A model generated the notes under the pieces. It searched no databases. It was not told the DNA's origin and was given only the letters and a program-made list of their open reading frames with translations. Of a stretch of DNA of 64,000 nucleotides, positions 16,659 to 24,404 are shown one piece after another. The position numbers and the translations under genes are program-made. The stretch is taken from the NCBI RefSeq assembly GCF_000687145.1, contig NZ_JMFG01000005.1:1-64000 (forward strand). Direction: 5' to 3'. The DNA comes from Thermoanaerobaculum aquaticum. GTDB taxonomy: Bacteria > Acidobacteriota > Thermoanaerobaculia > Thermoanaerobaculales > Thermoanaerobaculaceae. Position 1 is the stretch's first letter, and each line of letters begins with the position of its first letter.

Positions 16659-17993
16659 ATGAGACGTGGAGTTTGGATGCTCGTGTGTTCTTTGGGGCTT
16701 TGGGCCAGCAGCACATGGGCCCGGGAGTTGAGCCTGGAAGAAGCCATGCGTCTGGCGCGGGAGCGGCAAGCCACGGTGCAGGCGGCCAAAGCCGAAGAGG
16801 AAGCGGCCGCGCAGCGCGTGAATCAAGCCAAGGGCTTCCGCCTTCCCAGCCTGCGCTTCGATGAGGTGTTCATCCGCACCGACTCACCGGCTGAGGCCTT
16901 TGCCCTCAAGCTCAACCAGGAGCGCTTTTCCTTTCCAACCTTCATGACCACAGATCCCAACCGCCCGAAAAAGCTGGACACCGCCATTTCCCGCTTTGAG
17001 CTGCAGCTGCCGGTGTACACGGGCGGGGAGCTCTCTTCCCGGATCGCCCAAGCCCAGCGCTTTGCGGAAAGCAAAACGCTGGCCAGACAGTGGGCTGAGC
17101 GGCAAGCGGCCCTGGCTGCGGCGGAGGCCTACGTGATGCTGGCCCAAGCCCAGGAGTACGTGGCGTTGCTGCAGAAGGCTCGCGACACGGTGGCGGCCCA
17201 TGTGGCTTTGGCCAAGGCGTACGTGGATCAGGGCATGCTGGTGGAAGCCGAGTACCTGCGGGCGCAGGTGGAGCTTTCACGGCTTGAAGACCTCTTGGCG
17301 CAGGCCAAAGGCCAGGAAGAAGTTGCGCAAGCCAACCTGGCTTTCCGGCTGGGCCTGGAGCAAACGGAGCGCTTTGAGATTAAGCCCTTGGCATTGCCTG
17401 CCGGGCCCGCTGGTGGCCTTGAGGAGTACCTGGCCACCGCGGAAGCCCGCCCCGATGTGAGGGGGGCCGAGGCCATGGTTAAGGCCGCGGAGCTGGAAGC
17501 CCAGGTGAAAAAGGCCGCCTTCCTGCCCAAGGCGGGGATCGTGGCCCGAGCTGACTGGGTGGACGACACGCTCTTTGGCACCCACGGCGACAGCACCACG
17601 GTAATGGCCGTGGTGGGAGCCAACCTCTTTGCCGGCGGGTCTGACCGTGCGGCGGTGGCGGCCGCCCGGGCCGAAGCGCGCGCGGGAAGCGAGCAGGTGA
17701 GGTTTGCCCGCCAGGGGGTGGCGCTGGAAGTGCGGCAAGCGTACGTGGAAGCGCAGGTGGCGGTGGCACGGGTGGCCACCGCCCGCAAAGCCCTGCAGGC
17801 CGCGGCGGAGGTGGAACGGGTCACTACCGAGCGGTTCCGGCAGGGGGTGGTGAAGATGATTGACCTTTTGGACGCCGACACCGCCCGGCGGGAAGCGGAA
17901 ACGCGAGAGCTGGTGGCGCGAGCTGAAGCGCACCTGGCCCTTTTGCGCCTGGCCGTCAAAGCCGGCCGGGAACCGGAATCGGCGCTGCAGTAG
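16659..17993 (+). CDS. TolC-family outer-membrane efflux protein
   Basis: Forms the outer-membrane and periplasmic exit duct of an efflux pump. The 444-residue product has a signal peptide (cut near residue 21, after STWA), then the two repeated coiled-coil halves typical of the outer membrane efflux family: long Ala/Glu/Gln-rich helices at about residues 130-240 and 330-440, with FAGGSDRAAVAAARAEA marking the start of the second half. First gene of the operon, directly behind the promoter at 16610; the adaptor gene follows after 21 nt. Confidence 0.93.
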   Translation: MRRGVWMLVCSLGLWASSTWARELSLEEAMRLARERQATVQAAKAEEEAAAQRVNQAKGFRLPSLRFDEVFIRTDSPAEAFALKLNQERFSFPTFMTTDPNRPKKLDTAISRFELQLPVYTGGELSSRIAQAQRFAESKTLARQWAERQAALAAAEAYVMLAQAQEYVALLQKARDTVAAHVALAKAYVDQGMLVEAEYLRAQVELSRLEDLLAQAKGQEEVAQANLAFRLGLEQTERFEIKPLALPAGPAGGLEEYLATAEARPDVRGAEAMVKAAELEAQVKKAAFLPKAGIVARADWVDDTLFGTHGDSTTVMAVVGANLFAGGSDRAAVAAARAEARAGSEQVRFARQGVALEVRQAYVEAQVAVARVATARKALQAAAEVERVTTERFRQGVVKMIDLLDADTARREAETRELVARAEAHLALLRLAVKAGREPESALQ

Positions 17994-18014: not shown

Positions 18015-19088
18015 ATGAGCAAGACGTGGGTTTGGGTTTTGACCTTGGGAGTTTTGGCTGCGGGTTGCAAAGGGGGAAAGGACCACGTGGCGGCCCCCGC
18101 CCAGGAGGTAGGGAGCGTGAAAGCCCGCGTGGTGGCGGTCAATGCCGTCACGAAAAAGGAGCAGCACGCGGTGATGGGCACGGTGGAAGCGGAAAAGACC
18201 GCAGCGGTGTCCTCTCGCGTGATGGCCACGGTGCTGGCGGTTCACGTGAAACCGGGAGATCGGGTGCGCAAGGGGCAAGTGCTGGTGGACATCGATCCCG
18301 AGACCGCCAAGGGCCAGGAGGCTCAGGCCCGCGGGGCTTTGGCGCAAGCTCGTGCGGCATTGGCCTTGGCTGAAAGGAACTTCCAGCGCTTCAAGGCCCT
18401 TTACGAGGCCAAGGCCGCTTCTGAACTGGAGCTCGATATGGCCAAAATGCTGTACGAGCAAGCCAAAGGAGCGGTAGAGCAGGCGGAGGGTGCGGTGGCA
18501 GCAGCCAGCTCCGTGGCCAGGGAAAGCCGGGTGGTGGCGCCCTTCGACGGTTACGTCACCGCCAAGCTGGTGGAAGCGGGGGACCTGGCGGCGCCCGGCC
18601 GACCGCTGGTGATGCTGGAGTCGGCCACCGGTAGGCGCTTGGTGGTTACCGTGCCCGAGGGCACGTGGTCGCAAGTGGCCTTGAGCCTGGGCCAGGAAGT
18701 GCCGGTGACCCTGGATGCCCAACCCGGAAGGGCGTTTACCGGAAAGGTGGTGGAAATCACGCCCTCAGCTGATCCCGCCACGCACTCCTTCACGGTCAAG
18801 CTGGCCCTGGATCAAGAGGGGGTTCCGGCCGGCTCGGCGGGGCGTGCCCTGCTGCCCGGGGCCCAGCGTCAGGCCTTCCTGCTACCCAAGGAGGCGGTCC
18901 TCAACGTGGGCGGCCTCACCATGGTGGTGGTGGTGGATGCCCAGGGCCAGGCGCGATCCCGGGTGGTCACCATGGGACCGGAGGAAAACGGGATGGTGGA
19001 GGTGCTTTCCGGCCTTTCGGGGAGCGAACGGGTGCTGGTGGATCTGCCCCAGCCCCCAGCGGATGGAGCGCGGGTGGAGGAGGTGTAA
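18015..19088 (+). CDS. RND efflux periplasmic adaptor, lipoprotein
   Basis: Membrane fusion protein linking the RND pump to the TolC-like duct. The 357-residue product has a lipobox LAAGC with Cys18, so it should be a lipoprotein. It has the split lipoyl/biotinyl-like domain (VMATVLAVHVKPGDRVRKGQ at about residues 71-90, and SRVVAPFDGYVTAKLVEAGD at about 173-192) around a coiled-coil hairpin, then beta-barrel and membrane-proximal domains. Strong GGAGGAG ribosome-binding site. The substrate cannot be read from sequence. Confidence 0.93.
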   Translation: MSKTWVWVLTLGVLAAGCKGGKDHVAAPAQEVGSVKARVVAVNAVTKKEQHAVMGTVEAEKTAAVSSRVMATVLAVHVKPGDRVRKGQVLVDIDPETAKGQEAQARGALAQARAALALAERNFQRFKALYEAKAASELELDMAKMLYEQAKGAVEQAEGAVAAASSVARESRVVAPFDGYVTAKLVEAGDLAAPGRPLVMLESATGRRLVVTVPEGTWSQVALSLGQEVPVTLDAQPGRAFTGKVVEITPSADPATHSFTVKLALDQEGVPAGSAGRALLPGAQRQAFLLPKEAVLNVGGLTMVVVVDAQGQARSRVVTMGPEENGMVEVLSGLSGSERVLVDLPQPPADGARVEEV

Positions 19089-19091
19089 GCC

Positions 19092-22000
19092 GTGAACGGG
19101 GAAAAGAACAACCTGCAGCTTACAAAAAGGGAAGCCATGCGGCTGCGCATGGCCAGGCGCCCGCTGGGGGCCTCCGGCCGAATTGCCAAGGCTTTCCTTG
19201 AGTCCAAACTCACGCCCCTCTTGGTGGTGTTCTCTTTGCTCCTGGGTGCCTTTGCGGTGATGGTCACTCCGCGGGAGGAAGAACCGCAAATCAAGGTGCC
19301 CATGGTGGACGTGTTTGTGGGCTTCCCGGGGGCCACCGCGCAGGAGGTGGAACGCCGGCTCATCACCCCGCTGGAGAAGGCCCTCTACGAGATCCCCAAC
19401 GTGGAGTACATCTACTCCACCTCCCAGCCTTCAGGGGGCATGATCATCGTGCGCTTCCTGGTGGGCACGGACCCCGACCAGGCGGTGGTGCGGGTGCACA
19501 GCAAGCTGGCGGAGCTTACCCCGACGCTGCCGGCGGGGGCGATGCCACCGGTGGTGGCGCCTCGCTCCATTGACGACGTGCCGGTGGTGGCCTACACCCT
19601 CTGGTCGCCCTCGGAGCCGCCGGTAGCCTTAAGGCAGGTGGCCGAAGAGCTCAAGAACGAGCTCACCCGCCACCCCCGGGTGGCGCAGGTGTGGGTGCTG
19701 GGAGGGCAGCGGCGGGTGGTGCGTGTGACCTTTGACAAGGATCGCTTGGCCGCCCATCACGTGTCTTTGCTCCAGGCCTACCAGGCGGTGGCTGGCCTGA
19801 ACTGGAGCTTGCCGGCAGGCTCCTTTGCCCAGGCCGACCAGGAAGTGCTGGTGGACGTGAGCGCGTTCTTCCGCTCGGCGCAAGAGGTGGCCAATGCGGT
19901 GGTGGCGGTGTACGCTGGCCGACCGGTTTACCTCAGGGACGTGGCCGAGGTGGCCGATGGCCCCGAGGAACCCAACCAGTACGCGTGGATGATCGGTGGC
20001 CCCGCCGGCCACGAAAAGGGCTTGCCTGCCGGCTTGGTGGCGCCGGCGGTGACCGTGGCGGTGGCCAAAAAGCCCGGCACCAACGCGGTGCAGCTGGTGC
20101 GGGAGCTGGACAGCCACCTGACCACGCTGCAGGGCAAGGTGATCCCCTCTTCGGTGCGCGTCACCAAGACCCGGGACTACGGTTTTACCGCCAACGAGAA
20201 GTCCTCGGAGCTCATCGAGCACATGGCCATTGCCACCTTTGCCGTGGTGCTGTTGATGGCCTTCGCGTTAGGGCGAAGGGAAGCCATCGTGGTGGCGGTG
20301 GCGGTGCCGGCAACCCTGGCTCTGACGCTGGCATCCTCGTACCTCTTTGGCTACACCCTCAACAGGGTCACGCTCTTTGCCCTCATCTTTGCCATCGGCA
20401 TCCTGGTGGATGACGCCATCGTTGTGGTGGAGAACATCCACCGGCACTACGAACTGGGGTGGGCGCCTCCGCGCCAGGCCACGGTGTACGCGGTGGACGA
20501 GGTGGGAAACCCCACCATCCTTGCCACCTTCACGGTGGTGGCGGCCCTTTTGCCTCTGGCCTTTGTGTCGGGGTTGATGGGCCCATACATGCGCCCCATC
20601 CCCATTAACGCTTCGGCGGCCATGCTGTTCTCTTTGCTGGTCGCCTTTGTGGTTTCCCCGTGGCTTACCTTCAAGCTCTTCCGCAAGTGGGCGGAAGCGC
20701 ATTTGTCTGGCGAAGCGGAACCCGATGCAGAAACCCCTGAGGAAAGCAAGCTGCACCGTTTCTATCAAAAGCTCTTCACGCCACTTCTGGCTTCGGCCTG
20801 GCGACGGTGGGCGCTTTTGGCCGGAGTGGTGGTGTTGCTCCTGGGATCCATGGTGCTGGTGGTCCTCAAAGTGGTGACGGTAAAGATGCTGCCGTACGAC
20901 AACAAGAGCGAGCTGCAGGTGGTCATTGATATGCCCGAGGGCAGCACCTTAGAAGCTACGGCGGCGGTAGCCCGGGAGCTGGCGGAAACCCTCAGGCAGG
21001 TCCCGGAAATCACCGACATGCAGGTTTACGTGGGAACTTCGGCCCCCTTTAACTTCAACGGCCTGGTCCGCCATTACTTCCTGCGCTCAGGGCCGCTGGT
21101 GGCGGACATCCAGGTCAACCTCTTGCCCAAGCACCACCGTTCCCGGGCCAGTCACGACATTGCCAAGGCGGTGCGGGAGCTTTTGCAACCGGTGGTGGCA
21201 AAGACCCCGGCCAACGTCAAGGTGACCGAGGTGCCTCCCGGCCCGCCGGTGCTTTCCACGCTGGTGGCGGAAGTTTACGGCCCGGAGCTGGAGGTGCGGC
21301 TGGCCCTGGCGCAGGAGGTGCGGAAGATCTTTGAACAAACCCCGGGCGTTGTGGACGTGGACTGGTACGTGGAGGACCCGGCGCCGAAGCTGGACCTGCG
21401 GGTGGATCGGGAAAAGGCCATGCGCGCCGGCATCACACCGGAAATGATTGCCCGCGCCCTGCGGGTGGCCCTGGATGGGGCGGAGGTGACGCTTCTCCAC
21501 GACGAACGCTCGCGTACTCCGGTGCCTCTGGTGTTTAGGCTGCAGCGGGCCCAGCGCTCCAGTGTGGCCAGCCTCCTGGACGTGCGGTTGCACGGAGCCG
21601 CCGGCCAACTGGTGCCGCTTTCCGAGCTGGTGACGGTGGTTCCCACCAGCCGTGAGCGCTTCATTTACCACAAGAACCTGCGGCCGGTGACCTACGTGGT
21701 GGCGGAAATGGCAGGCGTTCTGGAAGCGCCGGTGTACGGCATTCTCGCCATGGAGCGGCAAATCGCCAGCCTCAGGGGTCCCGATGGCCAGCCCATCGAG
21801 GTGATCTCCACCCATTTGCCCGCCGACAACACCCGCTACAGCCTCAAGTGGGATGGGGAGTGGCACATTACCTACGAGGTGTTCCGCGATATGGGTGTGG
21901 CCTTTGCGGTGGTTTTGGTGCTCATTTACCTGCTGGTGGTGGGGTGGTTCCGCTCCTTCGTAACTCCCCTCATCATCATGGCGCCCATCCCCCTCACGTT

Positions 22001-22394
22001 GGTGGGCATTCTCCCCGCTCACGGCTTGTTTGGCGTCTTCTTCACCGCTACCTCCATGATTGGCTTTATTGCTCTGGCGGGGATCATCGTCCGCAACTCG
22101 ATTTTGCTGGTGGACTTCATCAACCTGGAGCTGGGATCCGGTGAAACCCTGGAAAACGCCGTGATCAAAGCGGGGGCGGTGCGCTTCCGGCCCATTGCTC
22201 TCACCGCGGCAGCGCTGGTGGTGGGCGGGGCTGTCATCCTTCTGGACCCCATCTTCCAGGGGCTGGCGGTGGCGCTGATTTCGGGGGTGGTGGTCTCCAC
22301 CATGCTAACGTTGGTGGTGATTCCGCTCTTGTACTTCATGTACGTGAGGACCGTGGGGGTGGAGAAGGTAATCTCCGCCAACGGCGACGAGTAA
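19092..22394 (+). CDS. RND-family efflux permease (AcrB/CzcA superfamily)
   Basis: Proton-driven inner-membrane pump of 1100 residues, starting at GTG 3 nt after the adaptor gene. It has the RND layout: helix 1 near residues 35-55, a large periplasmic loop (PREEEPQIKVPMVDVFVGFPG), helices 2-6 with GILVDDAIVVVENIHRHYE, a second large loop, and a C-terminal helix block (IGFIALAGIIVRNSILLVDF). The helix 4 motif has Asp-Asp, as in drug-type pumps, rather than the CzcA or CusA pattern, so a metal substrate is not proven. The partner genes downstream (ArsR, zinc ribbons) nevertheless suggest a toxic inorganic or thiol-reactive substrate. Confidence 0.95.
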   Translation: MNGEKNNLQLTKREAMRLRMARRPLGASGRIAKAFLESKLTPLLVVFSLLLGAFAVMVTPREEEPQIKVPMVDVFVGFPGATAQEVERRLITPLEKALYEIPNVEYIYSTSQPSGGMIIVRFLVGTDPDQAVVRVHSKLAELTPTLPAGAMPPVVAPRSIDDVPVVAYTLWSPSEPPVALRQVAEELKNELTRHPRVAQVWVLGGQRRVVRVTFDKDRLAAHHVSLLQAYQAVAGLNWSLPAGSFAQADQEVLVDVSAFFRSAQEVANAVVAVYAGRPVYLRDVAEVADGPEEPNQYAWMIGGPAGHEKGLPAGLVAPAVTVAVAKKPGTNAVQLVRELDSHLTTLQGKVIPSSVRVTKTRDYGFTANEKSSELIEHMAIATFAVVLLMAFALGRREAIVVAVAVPATLALTLASSYLFGYTLNRVTLFALIFAIGILVDDAIVVVENIHRHYELGWAPPRQATVYAVDEVGNPTILATFTVVAALLPLAFVSGLMGPYMRPIPINASAAMLFSLLVAFVVSPWLTFKLFRKWAEAHLSGEAEPDAETPEESKLHRFYQKLFTPLLASAWRRWALLAGVVVLLLGSMVLVVLKVVTVKMLPYDNKSELQVVIDMPEGSTLEATAAVARELAETLRQVPEITDMQVYVGTSAPFNFNGLVRHYFLRSGPLVADIQVNLLPKHHRSRASHDIAKAVRELLQPVVAKTPANVKVTEVPPGPPVLSTLVAEVYGPELEVRLALAQEVRKIFEQTPGVVDVDWYVEDPAPKLDLRVDREKAMRAGITPEMIARALRVALDGAEVTLLHDERSRTPVPLVFRLQRAQRSSVASLLDVRLHGAAGQLVPLSELVTVVPTSRERFIYHKNLRPVTYVVAEMAGVLEAPVYGILAMERQIASLRGPDGQPIEVISTHLPADNTRYSLKWDGEWHITYEVFRDMGVAFAVVLVLIYLLVVGWFRSFVTPLIIMAPIPLTLVGILPAHGLFGVFFTATSMIGFIALAGIIVRNSILLVDFINLELGSGETLENAVIKAGAVRFRPIALTAAALVVGGAVILLDPIFQGLAVALISGVVVSTMLTLVVIPLLYFMYVRTVGVEKVISANGDE

Positions 22395-22412: not shown

Positions 22413-22601
22413 ATGACGATTAACGAAGCGTTGCGAGCCATTGCCGGGTTTTTCGTGCTGGTTTCTCTGGCCTTGGGGCACTGGGTCAACCCGAACTTTT
22501 ACTACTTCACGGCCTTTGTGGGCCTGAACCTGCTGCAGTCGGCGTTCACCAAGTGGTGCCCCATGATCAGCCTGTTGCGGGCCTTGGGCTTAAAGGAGTA
22601 G
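22413..22601 (+). CDS. DUF2892 (YgaP transmembrane-type) small membrane protein
   Basis: A 62-residue protein with two predicted membrane helices (AIAGFFVLVSLALGHWV and FYYFTAFVGLNLLQSAF) and the typical DUF2892 end with a single Cys (TKWCPMISLLRALGL). This domain is common in small proteins and in rhodanese YgaP, and often sits beside RND pumps and ArsR regulators; its function is not known. Strong AAAGGGGGG ribosome-binding site; same operon as the pump. Confidence 0.88.
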   Translation: MTINEALRAIAGFFVLVSLALGHWVNPNFYYFTAFVGLNLLQSAFTKWCPMISLLRALGLKE

Positions 22602-22605
22602 CGCC

Positions 22606-22893
22606 ATGAAGTTTTTGATGATCATTGTGGATGAAAGCAAGAAGGAAGAGCTGGAGGTGCTGCTCAACCGGGTGGGGGTGGAGGGCTACACCGAAATCCC
22701 CCGGGTGGTTGGGGTCGGCACCACCGGACCCCGGTTGGGCTCCCGCGCCTTCCCCAAGACCTCGGCGCTCATCTTCACGGTGCTTTCCGAAAGCACTCTG
22801 GAAACGCTTCTCTCCACCCTGCGGGAGTTCTGCCGGGAGTGTGGGGAAAAGCTGAAGCTGGTGTCCTGGGATGTTAACGAGGTGAAGTTGTGA
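22606..22893 (+). CDS. P-II-like / DUF3240-type regulatory protein
   Basis: A 95-residue protein with a ferredoxin-like fold pattern (MKFLMIIVDESKKEELEVLL, then a loop and VSWDVNEVKL at the end), similar to the small P-II-like proteins encoded next to RND efflux pumps. It lacks the classical P-II T-loop tyrosine signature. It contains a Cys pair (CRECG near residue 80) that could bind metal or respond to thiol stress. It overlaps the ArsR gene start by 4 bases, so the two are translationally coupled. Confidence 0.72.
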   Translation: MKFLMIIVDESKKEELEVLLNRVGVEGYTEIPRVVGVGTTGPRLGSRAFPKTSALIFTVLSESTLETLLSTLREFCRECGEKLKLVSWDVNEVKL

Positions 22894-23333
22894 AGCGCCG
22901 ACGGATCCAGCTGACCCCCGCCACCCTGGCGCAACTTGCCCAAATATTGGCAGAAAGTTATATTGCGGTTGGGGGGGCGAACGTGGATCCCAAAGCTGAG
23001 CTGTTGTTTGAAAAGATCGCTGATAGGCTCAGATCCTTAGCCGATCCCACGCGACTGGCGATTCTTCACCTGCTGCAGAAGGGCGAGATGCGGGTCACCG
23101 ACATCCTTGCCGAAGTGGGCGGCAGCCAGGCTAACGTCTCCAAGCATCTGGGCGTCTTGCGGCAGGCGGGGTTTGTCACGTGTCGGCGGGACGGTGTCAA
23201 CATTTACTACTCGGTGGCCGATAGTTCGGTCTTTCAAATTTGCCGGGCCATTTGCGATGGCATCGAGCGCGCTGCTGAGGAAGAGAGAGAAGCCATTTCC
23301 CACGCCCGCAGGGTCCTGGGAGAGGGGGGGTAA
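22890..23333 (+). CDS. ArsR/SmtB-family transcriptional repressor
   Basis: A 147-residue winged-helix DNA-binding protein, GTG start overlapping the preceding stop. The ArsR core is clear: LRSLADPTRLAILHLLQKGE at residues 47-66, recognition helix SQANVSKHLGVLRQAGFV at 79-96, wing RRDGVNIYYSVAD at 99-111. The ELCVCD metal box of ArsR is absent; cysteines are at 98, 118 and 122, so the last two, in the C-terminal helix, may form the sensing site. An N-terminal extension of about 35 residues is unusual. It probably represses the operon through the palindrome at 16637-16646. Confidence 0.92.
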   Translation: MKRRRIQLTPATLAQLAQILAESYIAVGGANVDPKAELLFEKIADRLRSLADPTRLAILHLLQKGEMRVTDILAEVGGSQANVSKHLGVLRQAGFVTCRRDGVNIYYSVADSSVFQICRAICDGIERAAEEEREAISHARRVLGEGG

Positions 23334-23335
23334 GG

Positions 23336-23512
23336 GTGCTGGAGGGCTTGGTCTTTCTGGGGTTCATGGTGTTTTGGGTGGTGCTCCAGGCCTTTATCCT
23401 GCCCAAACTCGGGGTGCCCACCTGAGCGGCCCCCCGACCGACCGGTGGTCGGTCTGCAGGTCAGGACAGCTGCAACGTGACGGGCGATTCTAAGGAGGAA
23501 GCTGAGCGATGA
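23336..23512 (+). CDS. Candidate selenoprotein: small one-helix membrane protein with in-frame UGA
   Basis: GTG at 23336, 2 nt after the ArsR stop and behind AGGGGGGG, opens a frame with one strong membrane helix (LVFLGFMVFWVVLQAFIL, residues 5-22) and the motif LPKLGVPT, then TGA at 23423-23425 (residue 30). Reading TGA as selenocysteine continues the frame for 28 more residues, including Cys46, to a TGA at 23510-23512 that overlaps the next start as ATGA, the coupling pattern seen throughout this window. A perfect hairpin with a GGT loop lies 18 nt after the UGA. Total 58 residues. If the UGA were a true stop, a 29-residue membrane peptide would remain. I do not recognise a named family; a role in the efflux or detoxification operon is inferred. 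Confidence 0.72.
23436..23454 (+). promoter_or_regulatory. SECIS-like hairpin 1
   Basis: GACCGACC and GGTCGGTC form a perfect 8-bp stem around a GGT triloop (23444-23446). The loop begins 18 nt after the UGA at 23423-23425. Known bacterial SECIS elements lie directly after the UGA, with a short apical loop starting with G, about 16-37 nt away. As duplex DNA the same palindrome could instead be a protein-binding site. Confidence 0.7.
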
Positions 23513-23706
23513 GCGAAAAGCAGGAAAAACACCGGCAAGAGCCGGCCTGTCCCGCGTGCGGCGGGCATCTGCGGCCGGTTCCCACGTGAGGGATGCTGCT
23601 CTGGCGGTGCCAGAGCTGCGGTCGCATCATGTCCACCGACGAAGCCTTTCCCCAGGGCATCCCCAGCAACATTTGGGATCAGCTTTGGGGGCGTTGCGGA
23701 GGGTAG
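23509..23706 (+). CDS. Candidate selenoprotein: zinc-ribbon protein with in-frame UGA
   Basis: ATG at 23509 behind TAAGGAGG opens a frame with CPACG (Cys14, Cys17), TGA at codon 27 (23587-23589), then RCQSCGR (Cys34, Cys37), a Trp-rich tail (SNIWDQLWGRCGG, Cys63) and TAG. The two CxxC pairs that form a zinc ribbon lie on opposite sides of the UGA, so the protein makes sense only if the UGA is read; the reading frame and spacing are intact. A perfect hairpin with a GGT loop begins 9 nt after the UGA. Total 65 residues. Alternatives are a nonsense mutation or an independent 37-residue product from the ATG at 23593. Family not recognised; role in the efflux operon inferred. Confidence 0.75.
23598..23616 (+). 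promoter_or_regulatory. SECIS-like hairpin 2
   Basis: GCTCTGGC and GCCAGAGC form a perfect 8-bp stem around a GGT triloop (23606-23608). The loop begins 16 nt after the UGA at 23587-23589. Stem length, loop sequence and spacing match hairpin 1 although the stem sequences are unrelated, which indicates selection on structure. Confidence 0.75.
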
Positions 23707-23708
23707 CT

Positions 23709-23912
23709 ATGCCGCTTTACGAGTACCAGTGCGAAGCCTGCGGGCATCGCTTTGAGGTCTGGCAACGCATGGGGGCCGGAAGCCAGGGCGTGTCCTGCCC
23801 CCAGTGCGGCAGTCAAGAGGTGAAGAAGGTTTTATCCACCTTTGCCAGCAGCACGAGCGCCAGTGCCCCCTGCGGGTCCTCGGCCTCCTCTTGCTCCAGC
23901 GGCTTTTCTTGA
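23709..23912 (+). CDS. FmdB-family zinc-ribbon protein
   Basis: A 67-residue protein starting MPLYEYQCEACGHRFEV, the hallmark of the FmdB/CxxC_CxxC_SSSS family. Cys8, Cys11, Cys30 and Cys33 form the zinc ribbon, and the rest is a Ser/Cys-rich tail (STSASAPCGSSASSC). The molecular role of the family is unclear; the name comes from a putative regulator of formamidase. It starts 2 nt after the preceding stop in the efflux operon. Confidence 0.9.
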   Translation: MPLYEYQCEACGHRFEVWQRMGAGSQGVSCPQCGSQEVKKVLSTFASSTSASAPCGSSASSCSSGFS

Positions 23913-23999: not shown

Positions 24000-24404
24000 A
24001 TGCGGGAAACATCCGTTGCTTTTGAGGAGAAATCTCAGTTTGGTTTTGAAGAAACCGTGGAAAGGGCAAGGCAAGCCCTGGCGGAGAGGGGCTTTGGCGT
24101 CCTCTGCGAAATTGACGTGCAGGCCACGCTCAAGAAGAAGCTGGACGTGGATCGGCCCCCGTACCTGATCCTTGGCGCCTGCCATGCCCCTTCCGCCCAC
24201 CAGGTGCTTTCCGCCGAGCCCCAGGCCGGCGTTCTCCTGCCCTGCAACGTCACGGTTTCCGTGGAGGAGGGTCAGGTGGTTGTGCGGGCCATGCGGCCCC
24301 AGGGGGCGCTGGCGGTTTTCAACCGCCCGGATTTGGCGCCGGTGGCCGACCACGTGGGCGAGCTCCTGCGGCAGGTGGTGGCCTTTGCCGCCGGCGGGCA
24401 GTAA
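24000..24404 (+). CDS. DUF302 domain protein
   Basis: A 134-residue cytoplasmic protein matching DUF302: FGFEETVERARQALAERGFGVL near residue 15, LILGACHAPSAHQVLSAEP near residue 55, and LLPCNVTVSVEEG. The HVxGACxP-like motif with Cys and His is kept. The family is often encoded beside redox or sulfur genes and has no proven function. It is the last + gene of this run; the convergent tyrosine phenol-lyase gene ends 16 nt further on. Confidence 0.87.
   Translation: MRETSVAFEEKSQFGFEETVERARQALAERGFGVLCEIDVQATLKKKLDVDRPPYLILGACHAPSAHQVLSAEPQAGVLLPCNVTVSVEEGQVVVRAMRPQGALAVFNRPDLAPVADHVGELLRQVVAFAAGGQ

Follow-up and report, generated by a model that had tools for sequence, protein, structure and literature searches.

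Predicted zinc-ribbon and membrane-anchored selenoproteins encoded side by side in an ArsR-associated RND efflux operon of Thermoanaerobaculum aquaticum

Gene content of the locus

The window analysed here, the first 64,000 nucleotides of contig NZ_JMFG01000005.1, carries on its forward strand a series of genes that includes two short reading frames, each interrupted by an in-frame UGA codon. The series starts with an outer-membrane-factor-like gene (16659-17993, named from its sequence only), followed by those for an RND efflux adaptor (18015-19088; TIGR01730), an RND permease (19092-22394; ACR_tran), a YgaP-like transmembrane (DUF2892) protein (22413-22601; PF11127, 49.2 bits), and a P-II-like transporter-associated protein of the PG0541 family (22606-22893; NF045581, 57.1 bits against a cut-off of 45). 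The ArsR/SmtB metalloregulator (22890-23333; NF033788, 90.8 bits), a conserved neighbour, lies directly upstream of the two UGA-containing genes, referred to here as TMU (23336-23512) and ZRU (23509-23706). Directly downstream of ZRU is an all-Cys zinc ribbon of the FmdB family (23709-23912; TIGR02605, 72.8 bits), and then a gene for a DUF302 protein (24000-24404; PF03625, 78.1 bits). This operon order is preserved across genera and families. TMU adjoins ZRU on its upstream side in 20 of the 23 genomes that encode ZRU, and FmdB adjoins it downstream in all 22 examined; genomes G018, G020, and G024 have an ArsR-ZRU-FmdB arrangement without TMU and with no RND genes nearby.

In the ArsR regulator, many relatives carry a Cys residue in the motif GE[RKL]CV.[DE][IVL]L, which the genus of the window lacks (GEMRVTDIL or GPMRVTDIL); most of the Cys pairs located further along (ICxxxC) are retained. 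A 118-codon open reading frame in another frame (23556-23912) crosses from ZRU into FmdB, and an automated pipeline may annotate this frame as an elongated FmdB, hiding ZRU.

Layout and predicted structure of ZRU

The ZRU gene is preceded by the Shine-Dalgarno sequence AAGGAGG (23492-23498), 10 nt 5' of an ATG codon that overlaps the TMU stop (ATGA, with the TMU TGA at 23510-23512). Its frame, 23509-23706, translates as MSEKQEKHRQEPACPACGGHLRPVPT, an in-frame UGA, and GMLLWRCQSCGRIMSTDEAFPQGIPSNIWDQLWGRCGG, and is closed by a TAG (23704-23706). Translation bears out the preliminary description, which had reported CPACG, UGA, and CQSCG in a single frame of 65 residues with the UGA as codon 27. 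This codon (23587-23589), the predicted selenocysteine (Sec) site, lies in the context PVPT-U-G between the first zinc knuckle, CPAC (C14 and C17; 23548-23559), and the second one, CQSC (C34 and C37; 23608-23619). The full reading is an intact zinc ribbon of the form CxxC-x9-U-x6-CxxC with a C-terminal CGG, in which Cys63 (23695-23697) is a candidate resolving thiol for Sec27.

The AlphaFold2 model of ZRU, built from the alignment of 23 sequences, is a small ribbon of medium confidence (pLDDT 77.7) with predicted strands at residues 20-25 and 30-34, i.e., two CxxC knuckles on a β-hairpin, as in the zinc-ribbon fold. Sec27 is placed in the turn between the strands, and a helix (residues 53-60) connects to the Cys63-containing tail. 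Matches to known folds and profiles (Pfam, PDB sequences, and Foldseek) are weak, with a best fold-match E value of 0.085, and belong mostly to the zinc-ribbon class, including ZifS, Rpb9, and eL43.

The upstream gene, TMU

TMU starts with a GTG codon, ends with the TGA at 23510-23512, and reads MLEGLVFLGFMVFWVVLQAFILPKLGVPTUAAPRPTGGRSAGQDSCNVTGDSKEEAER, a predicted membrane-anchored selenoprotein with Sec30 in LGVPTUA. The in-frame UGA (23423-23425) is conserved in the homologues. TMU is more widespread than ZRU, being found in 45 of 110 genomes versus 23 of 197; each of its 46 copies contains exactly one TGA. In the conserved core, a transmembrane-like segment precedes LPxxGVPTU[AGS]xPxP, and 24 of 25 sequences have a Cys residue 11 to 21 positions after the Sec. 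None of the 16 members tested matched an NCBIfam model, and the protein encoded in the window had no significant match in Pfam; judged by its sequence, TMU probably represents a separate, new family of selenoproteins.

One TMU homologue (L054, contig C11 of G003), from a genome that lacks ZRU, has a Cys4 zinc ribbon (CQSCGGPLGPEDQRCPTCG) fused to its C terminus. This fusion points to joint action of the membrane Sec peptide and a zinc ribbon. Elsewhere in the T. aquaticum genome, the VPTU pattern matched at two further sites (on contigs C6 and C25), neither with a plausible Sec gene, which is at chance level (control, 5).

Hairpins downstream of the UGA codons

In bacterial SelB-dependent systems, the SECIS element is a stem-loop located just 3' of the UGA, inside the coding region, with GG opening its apical loop. 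ZRU has a SECIS-like hairpin at 23598-23616, in which the arm 23598-23605 (GCTCTGGC) pairs with 23609-23616 (GCCAGAGC) around the loop GGT (23606-23608). The stem begins at the 9th and the loop at the 17th nucleotide after the UGA, with 16 nt between, so that the coordinates agree with the 8-bp stem and GGU triloop described before, which had been placed 9 nt and 16 nt from the UGA, respectively. The TMU hairpin (23436-23454; arms 23436-23443 and 23447-23454) likewise consists of a GGU triloop on a stem of 8 bp, the loop starting 19 nt after the UGA. The same stem length and loop built from unrelated bases had been noted for the preceding gene, and this comparison stands; moreover, the upstream hairpin truly covaries, with 17 compensatory cells versus 4.4 in shuffled alignments, a value reached in none of 500 shuffles. 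This count covers 15 sequences with the loop at +19, leaving out those with other loop positions or bulges.

The 46 nt from the ZRU UGA fold at -22.9 kcal/mol (z = -2.7), and 3 of 200 shuffles do as well. Compared with synonymous recodings of the same peptide, the hairpin of this single sequence gives P = 0.01 for energy and P = 0.05 for stem length; the energy comparison is weak in many homologues. Folding energy was not relied upon because z was -2.7 for ZRU but -0.9 for TMU and because of that weakness against recoding. By itself, the ZRU hairpin is modest evidence, and it is the cross-species evidence that decides.

Across genomes, synonymous sites 3' of the UGA are free almost everywhere in ZRU except in the hairpin, where the codons are frozen: CTC for Leu+4 in 23 of 23 sequences, CGG for Arg+6 in 22 of 23, TGC for Cys+7 in 23 of 23, and AGC for Ser+9 in 18 of 18. 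Just beyond the hairpin, Cys+10 is encoded by TGC in 16 sequences and by TGT in 7, and Gly+11 by all four codons. The position of the hairpin is constant, apart from three genomes with one inserted codon, in which it is shifted 3 nt later. The stem forms in 97% of the cells in the covariation count, with a single compensatory cell (L045); in the sequence L040 the stem contains a mismatch. It barely covaries because the peptide and the RNA constrain the same bases. The search of Rfam found no RNA family at the ZRU/TMU locus. In its GGU triloop and 8-bp stem, the ZRU hairpin shows no notable difference from SelB-type SECIS elements.

Conservation of the UGA codon and of the codons beyond it

A search with the full reading of ZRU found the gene in 23 of 197 related genomes, that of T. 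aquaticum included, and every match was interrupted by a TGA; sense codons, UAA, and UAG are all absent from this site. Such recurrence disposes of a sequencing error as the source of the UGA. Common to all 23 sequences are C14, C17, C34, C37, the flank P-[VLA]-P-T-UGA-G, LWRC, G50, P52, and W56, as well as a C-terminal Cys, with chains ending in CGG, CGD, or GC. The preliminary description would have failed if homologues carried random residues at this position and no hairpin; instead, the UGA is invariant, the hairpin is present, and its third codon positions are frozen. In pairs of sequences from within the genus, the 37 codons 3' of the UGA differ by 13 to 16 synonymous and 3 to 7 nonsynonymous codon changes per pair, which implies that they are translated in this frame.

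These data bear directly on the alternatives to Sec insertion. That the UGA is a real stop, ending a 26-residue peptide or marking a decaying, degenerate zinc-ribbon gene, agrees with table 11, which terminates the ZRU frame there. This reading is very improbable given the protein-level selection on the downstream codons and the conservation of LWRC, GxP, W, and the C-terminal Cys after the UGA in 23 genomes; besides, a pseudogene would not retain a UGA, and only that codon, at one position in several families. Also at odds with the comparison is termination followed by re-initiation at an ATG two codons after the UGA (23593), since this codon is an ATG solely in the query and G002 and encodes Ser, Thr, Ala, Gly, or Arg, none of them a start, in the other 21 genomes; re-initiation would also yield just half a zinc ribbon, and its likelihood is minimal. 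Another option, that the frame that matters is the overlapping 23556-23912 as an N-terminally extended FmdB, draws on the open frame and on similar extensions in several relatives; it is extremely unlikely, as most substitutions are silent when read in the ZRU frame, the extension arises as a side effect of ZRU codon conservation, and FmdB starts at its own ATG (MP[LI]YEY) throughout.

SelB-dependent selenoproteins usually have homologues with Cys in place of Sec, a supporting feature and no strict requirement. A check for Cys/Sec pairs at codon 27 found none among the close homologues, which all have UGA, and neither the search of the 197 relatives nor a profile search of 396 genomes from across the phylum yielded a Cys-containing form. 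The non-UGA matches in these searches were short or partial; L048 among them was read individually, together with L050 from the NF041197 search. The Sec/Cys pair argument is therefore missing for ZRU, no Cys form having been found in this subfamily. This absence suggests a role in which sulfur falls short.

Among GTDB contigs, a scan returned five loci of close relationship, each carrying the label Acidobacteria or Thermoanaerobaculia, as well as a single marginal match in Sodalis. All ZRU homologues belong to one class of one phylum, within a search of the whole collection that can reach only close relatives outside that class. The plasmid and viral contigs searched contained no relative.

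Selenocysteine machinery and the genetic code

The genome encodes a tRNA-Sec (79 bits, also called by ARAGORN), SelA (465 bits), SelB (658 aa, 340.7 bits), and SelD (344 bits), the last with a UGA of its own in the motif SCAGUAAK, so that an objection based on the absence of the Sec machinery does not hold. SelB was above the cut-off in 41 of the 47 genomes checked. The selD mRNA, as read from its sequence, has a possible hairpin, GGUCC-GGC-GGACC, with the loop ~18 nt after the UGA, i.e., between the ZRU and TMU distances; the ZRU hairpin is thus similarly placed. The predicted minimum-energy fold of selD has a somewhat different apex. In genome G000, bases 178-480 of contigs C5 and C31 (L012 and L013) give the same SelB-family match at identical coordinates near the contig start, as would be seen if an elongation-factor region were duplicated or collapsed.

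UGA serves as a normal stop codon in the neighbouring adk, PG0541, FmdB, and fumarase genes. Reading of the UGA as an ordinary residue, such as Trp, through an altered genetic code or decoding by a near-cognate tRNA, is compatible with the constant UGA in ZRU but has a negligible probability, given that UGA terminates these genes and TMU itself, that the conserved ZRU Trp codons are always TGG, that a hairpin is selected 3' of the UGA, and that the Sec machinery is complete. Judged from sequence comparison, it is very highly probable that SelB and tRNA-Sec insert Sec at UGA27 of ZRU under the direction of the GGU hairpin that follows 17 nt later.

Comparison with known selenoprotein families

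A total of 119 families or subfamilies of selenoproteins are listed in the review PMC13188914. The "dual CXXC motif small (seleno)protein," NF041197, appears there twice, as OS_HP3 (Table 1) with RxU and as "hypothetical protein DW" with GxU; the "hypothetical protein DW" of PMC12013277 is assigned to this model as well. NF041197 alone among the NCBIfam models matches all 23 ZRU homologues, and its members resemble ZRU in their small size and in having two CxxC pairs that flank one Sec with matching spacing. In a profile comparison, Sec aligned with Sec (probability 95.3). The ZRU query scored 24.7 bits against this model, below the cut-off of 40, and differs in its Sec context (PTU rather than the listed RxU or GxU), in its SECIS sequence, and in its location in an operon with ArsR, RND, and TMU genes. 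Given the Sec alignment and the score below the cut-off, ZRU is classified, from its sequence, as a divergent sister subfamily of the described NF041197 kind and not as a member by the curated test.

UGA-containing NF041197-like genes were also seen in other acidobacterial lineages (L127 above the cut-off, L128 and L049 below it). They have the spacing CxxC-x9/10-U-x6-CxxC, the same layout as ZRU; unlike them, ZRU has its own VPTUG-LLWRC signature and a GIP..W......C tail.

The FmdB-family selenoprotein (TIGR02605), with the motif UxxU, is included in Table 1 of PMC13188914. It is likewise a small zinc ribbon with Sec, and an all-Cys member of its family is the gene next to ZRU. In that selenoprotein, Sec replaces metal-binding Cys residues, whereas in ZRU all four ligand Cys remain and the Sec is additional; ZRU scored 15.5 bits against TIGR02605, and its Sec lies outside the CxxC motifs. 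The Tso operon is a precedent for several selenoproteins encoded beside an ArsR/SmtB-type regulator, TsoR, and the locus described here resembles it in that respect. The regulator in the window scored 50.8 bits against the TsoR model, below the cut-off of 115, and the NCBIfam comparison gave no match of Tso protein families to ZRU or TMU. The Tso families and NF045707 are both listed in PMC13188914. No description of the VPTU pair (ZRU and TMU) was found in the selenoprotein literature covered, a set outside which key work of Haft and of Zhang and Gladyshev lies.

Possible functions of ZRU and TMU

The two CxxC knuckles of ZRU would hold a metal ion, probably zinc. With the four ligand Cys complete without Sec, the latter is most likely an exposed selenol, available for redox exchange with Cys63 or TMU or for binding of a soft metal(loid). 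Located in the turn of the β-hairpin between the knuckles, Sec27 may pair with Cys63 as a selenenylsulfide or bind such a metal(loid) itself, and ZRU may act together with the membrane-anchored Sec peptide encoded just upstream.

The conserved gene order allows the tentative suggestion that ZRU and TMU assist the ArsR-controlled RND efflux operon as selenol-based accessories, acting in redox exchange or binding soft metals, with a function in some form of metal or thiol stress. Somewhat less probable, though to be taken seriously, is a Sec protein in which Sec27 serves structurally, as a metal ligand, or has a function that involves neither metal nor thiol stress, with the operon context merely historical. 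Zinc ribbons have many roles, and the three genomes with ZRU, ArsR, and FmdB lack RND genes nearby; against this, the association with ArsR and FmdB holds in every lineage examined, and the whole efflux operon is retained in most. A more specific form of the accessory role is unlikely but conceivable: membrane-bound TMU and cytosolic ZRU could be the Sec-containing halves of a selenol relay or a trap for soft metals, not described before, that supplies the ArsR-controlled RND pump in Thermoanaerobaculia and related groups, with the VPTU motif common to both proteins as the exchange site.

ZRU adds a selenoprotein subfamily below the threshold of current models, and the adjoining TMU matches no NCBIfam or Pfam family. 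As both genes are short and contain an in-frame UGA, standard gene-finding programs would overlook them or predict truncated products. A Sec pair, an ArsR sensor, and an RND pump in one conserved operon offer a concrete, testable setting for the role of selenocysteine in metal-handling neighbourhoods.
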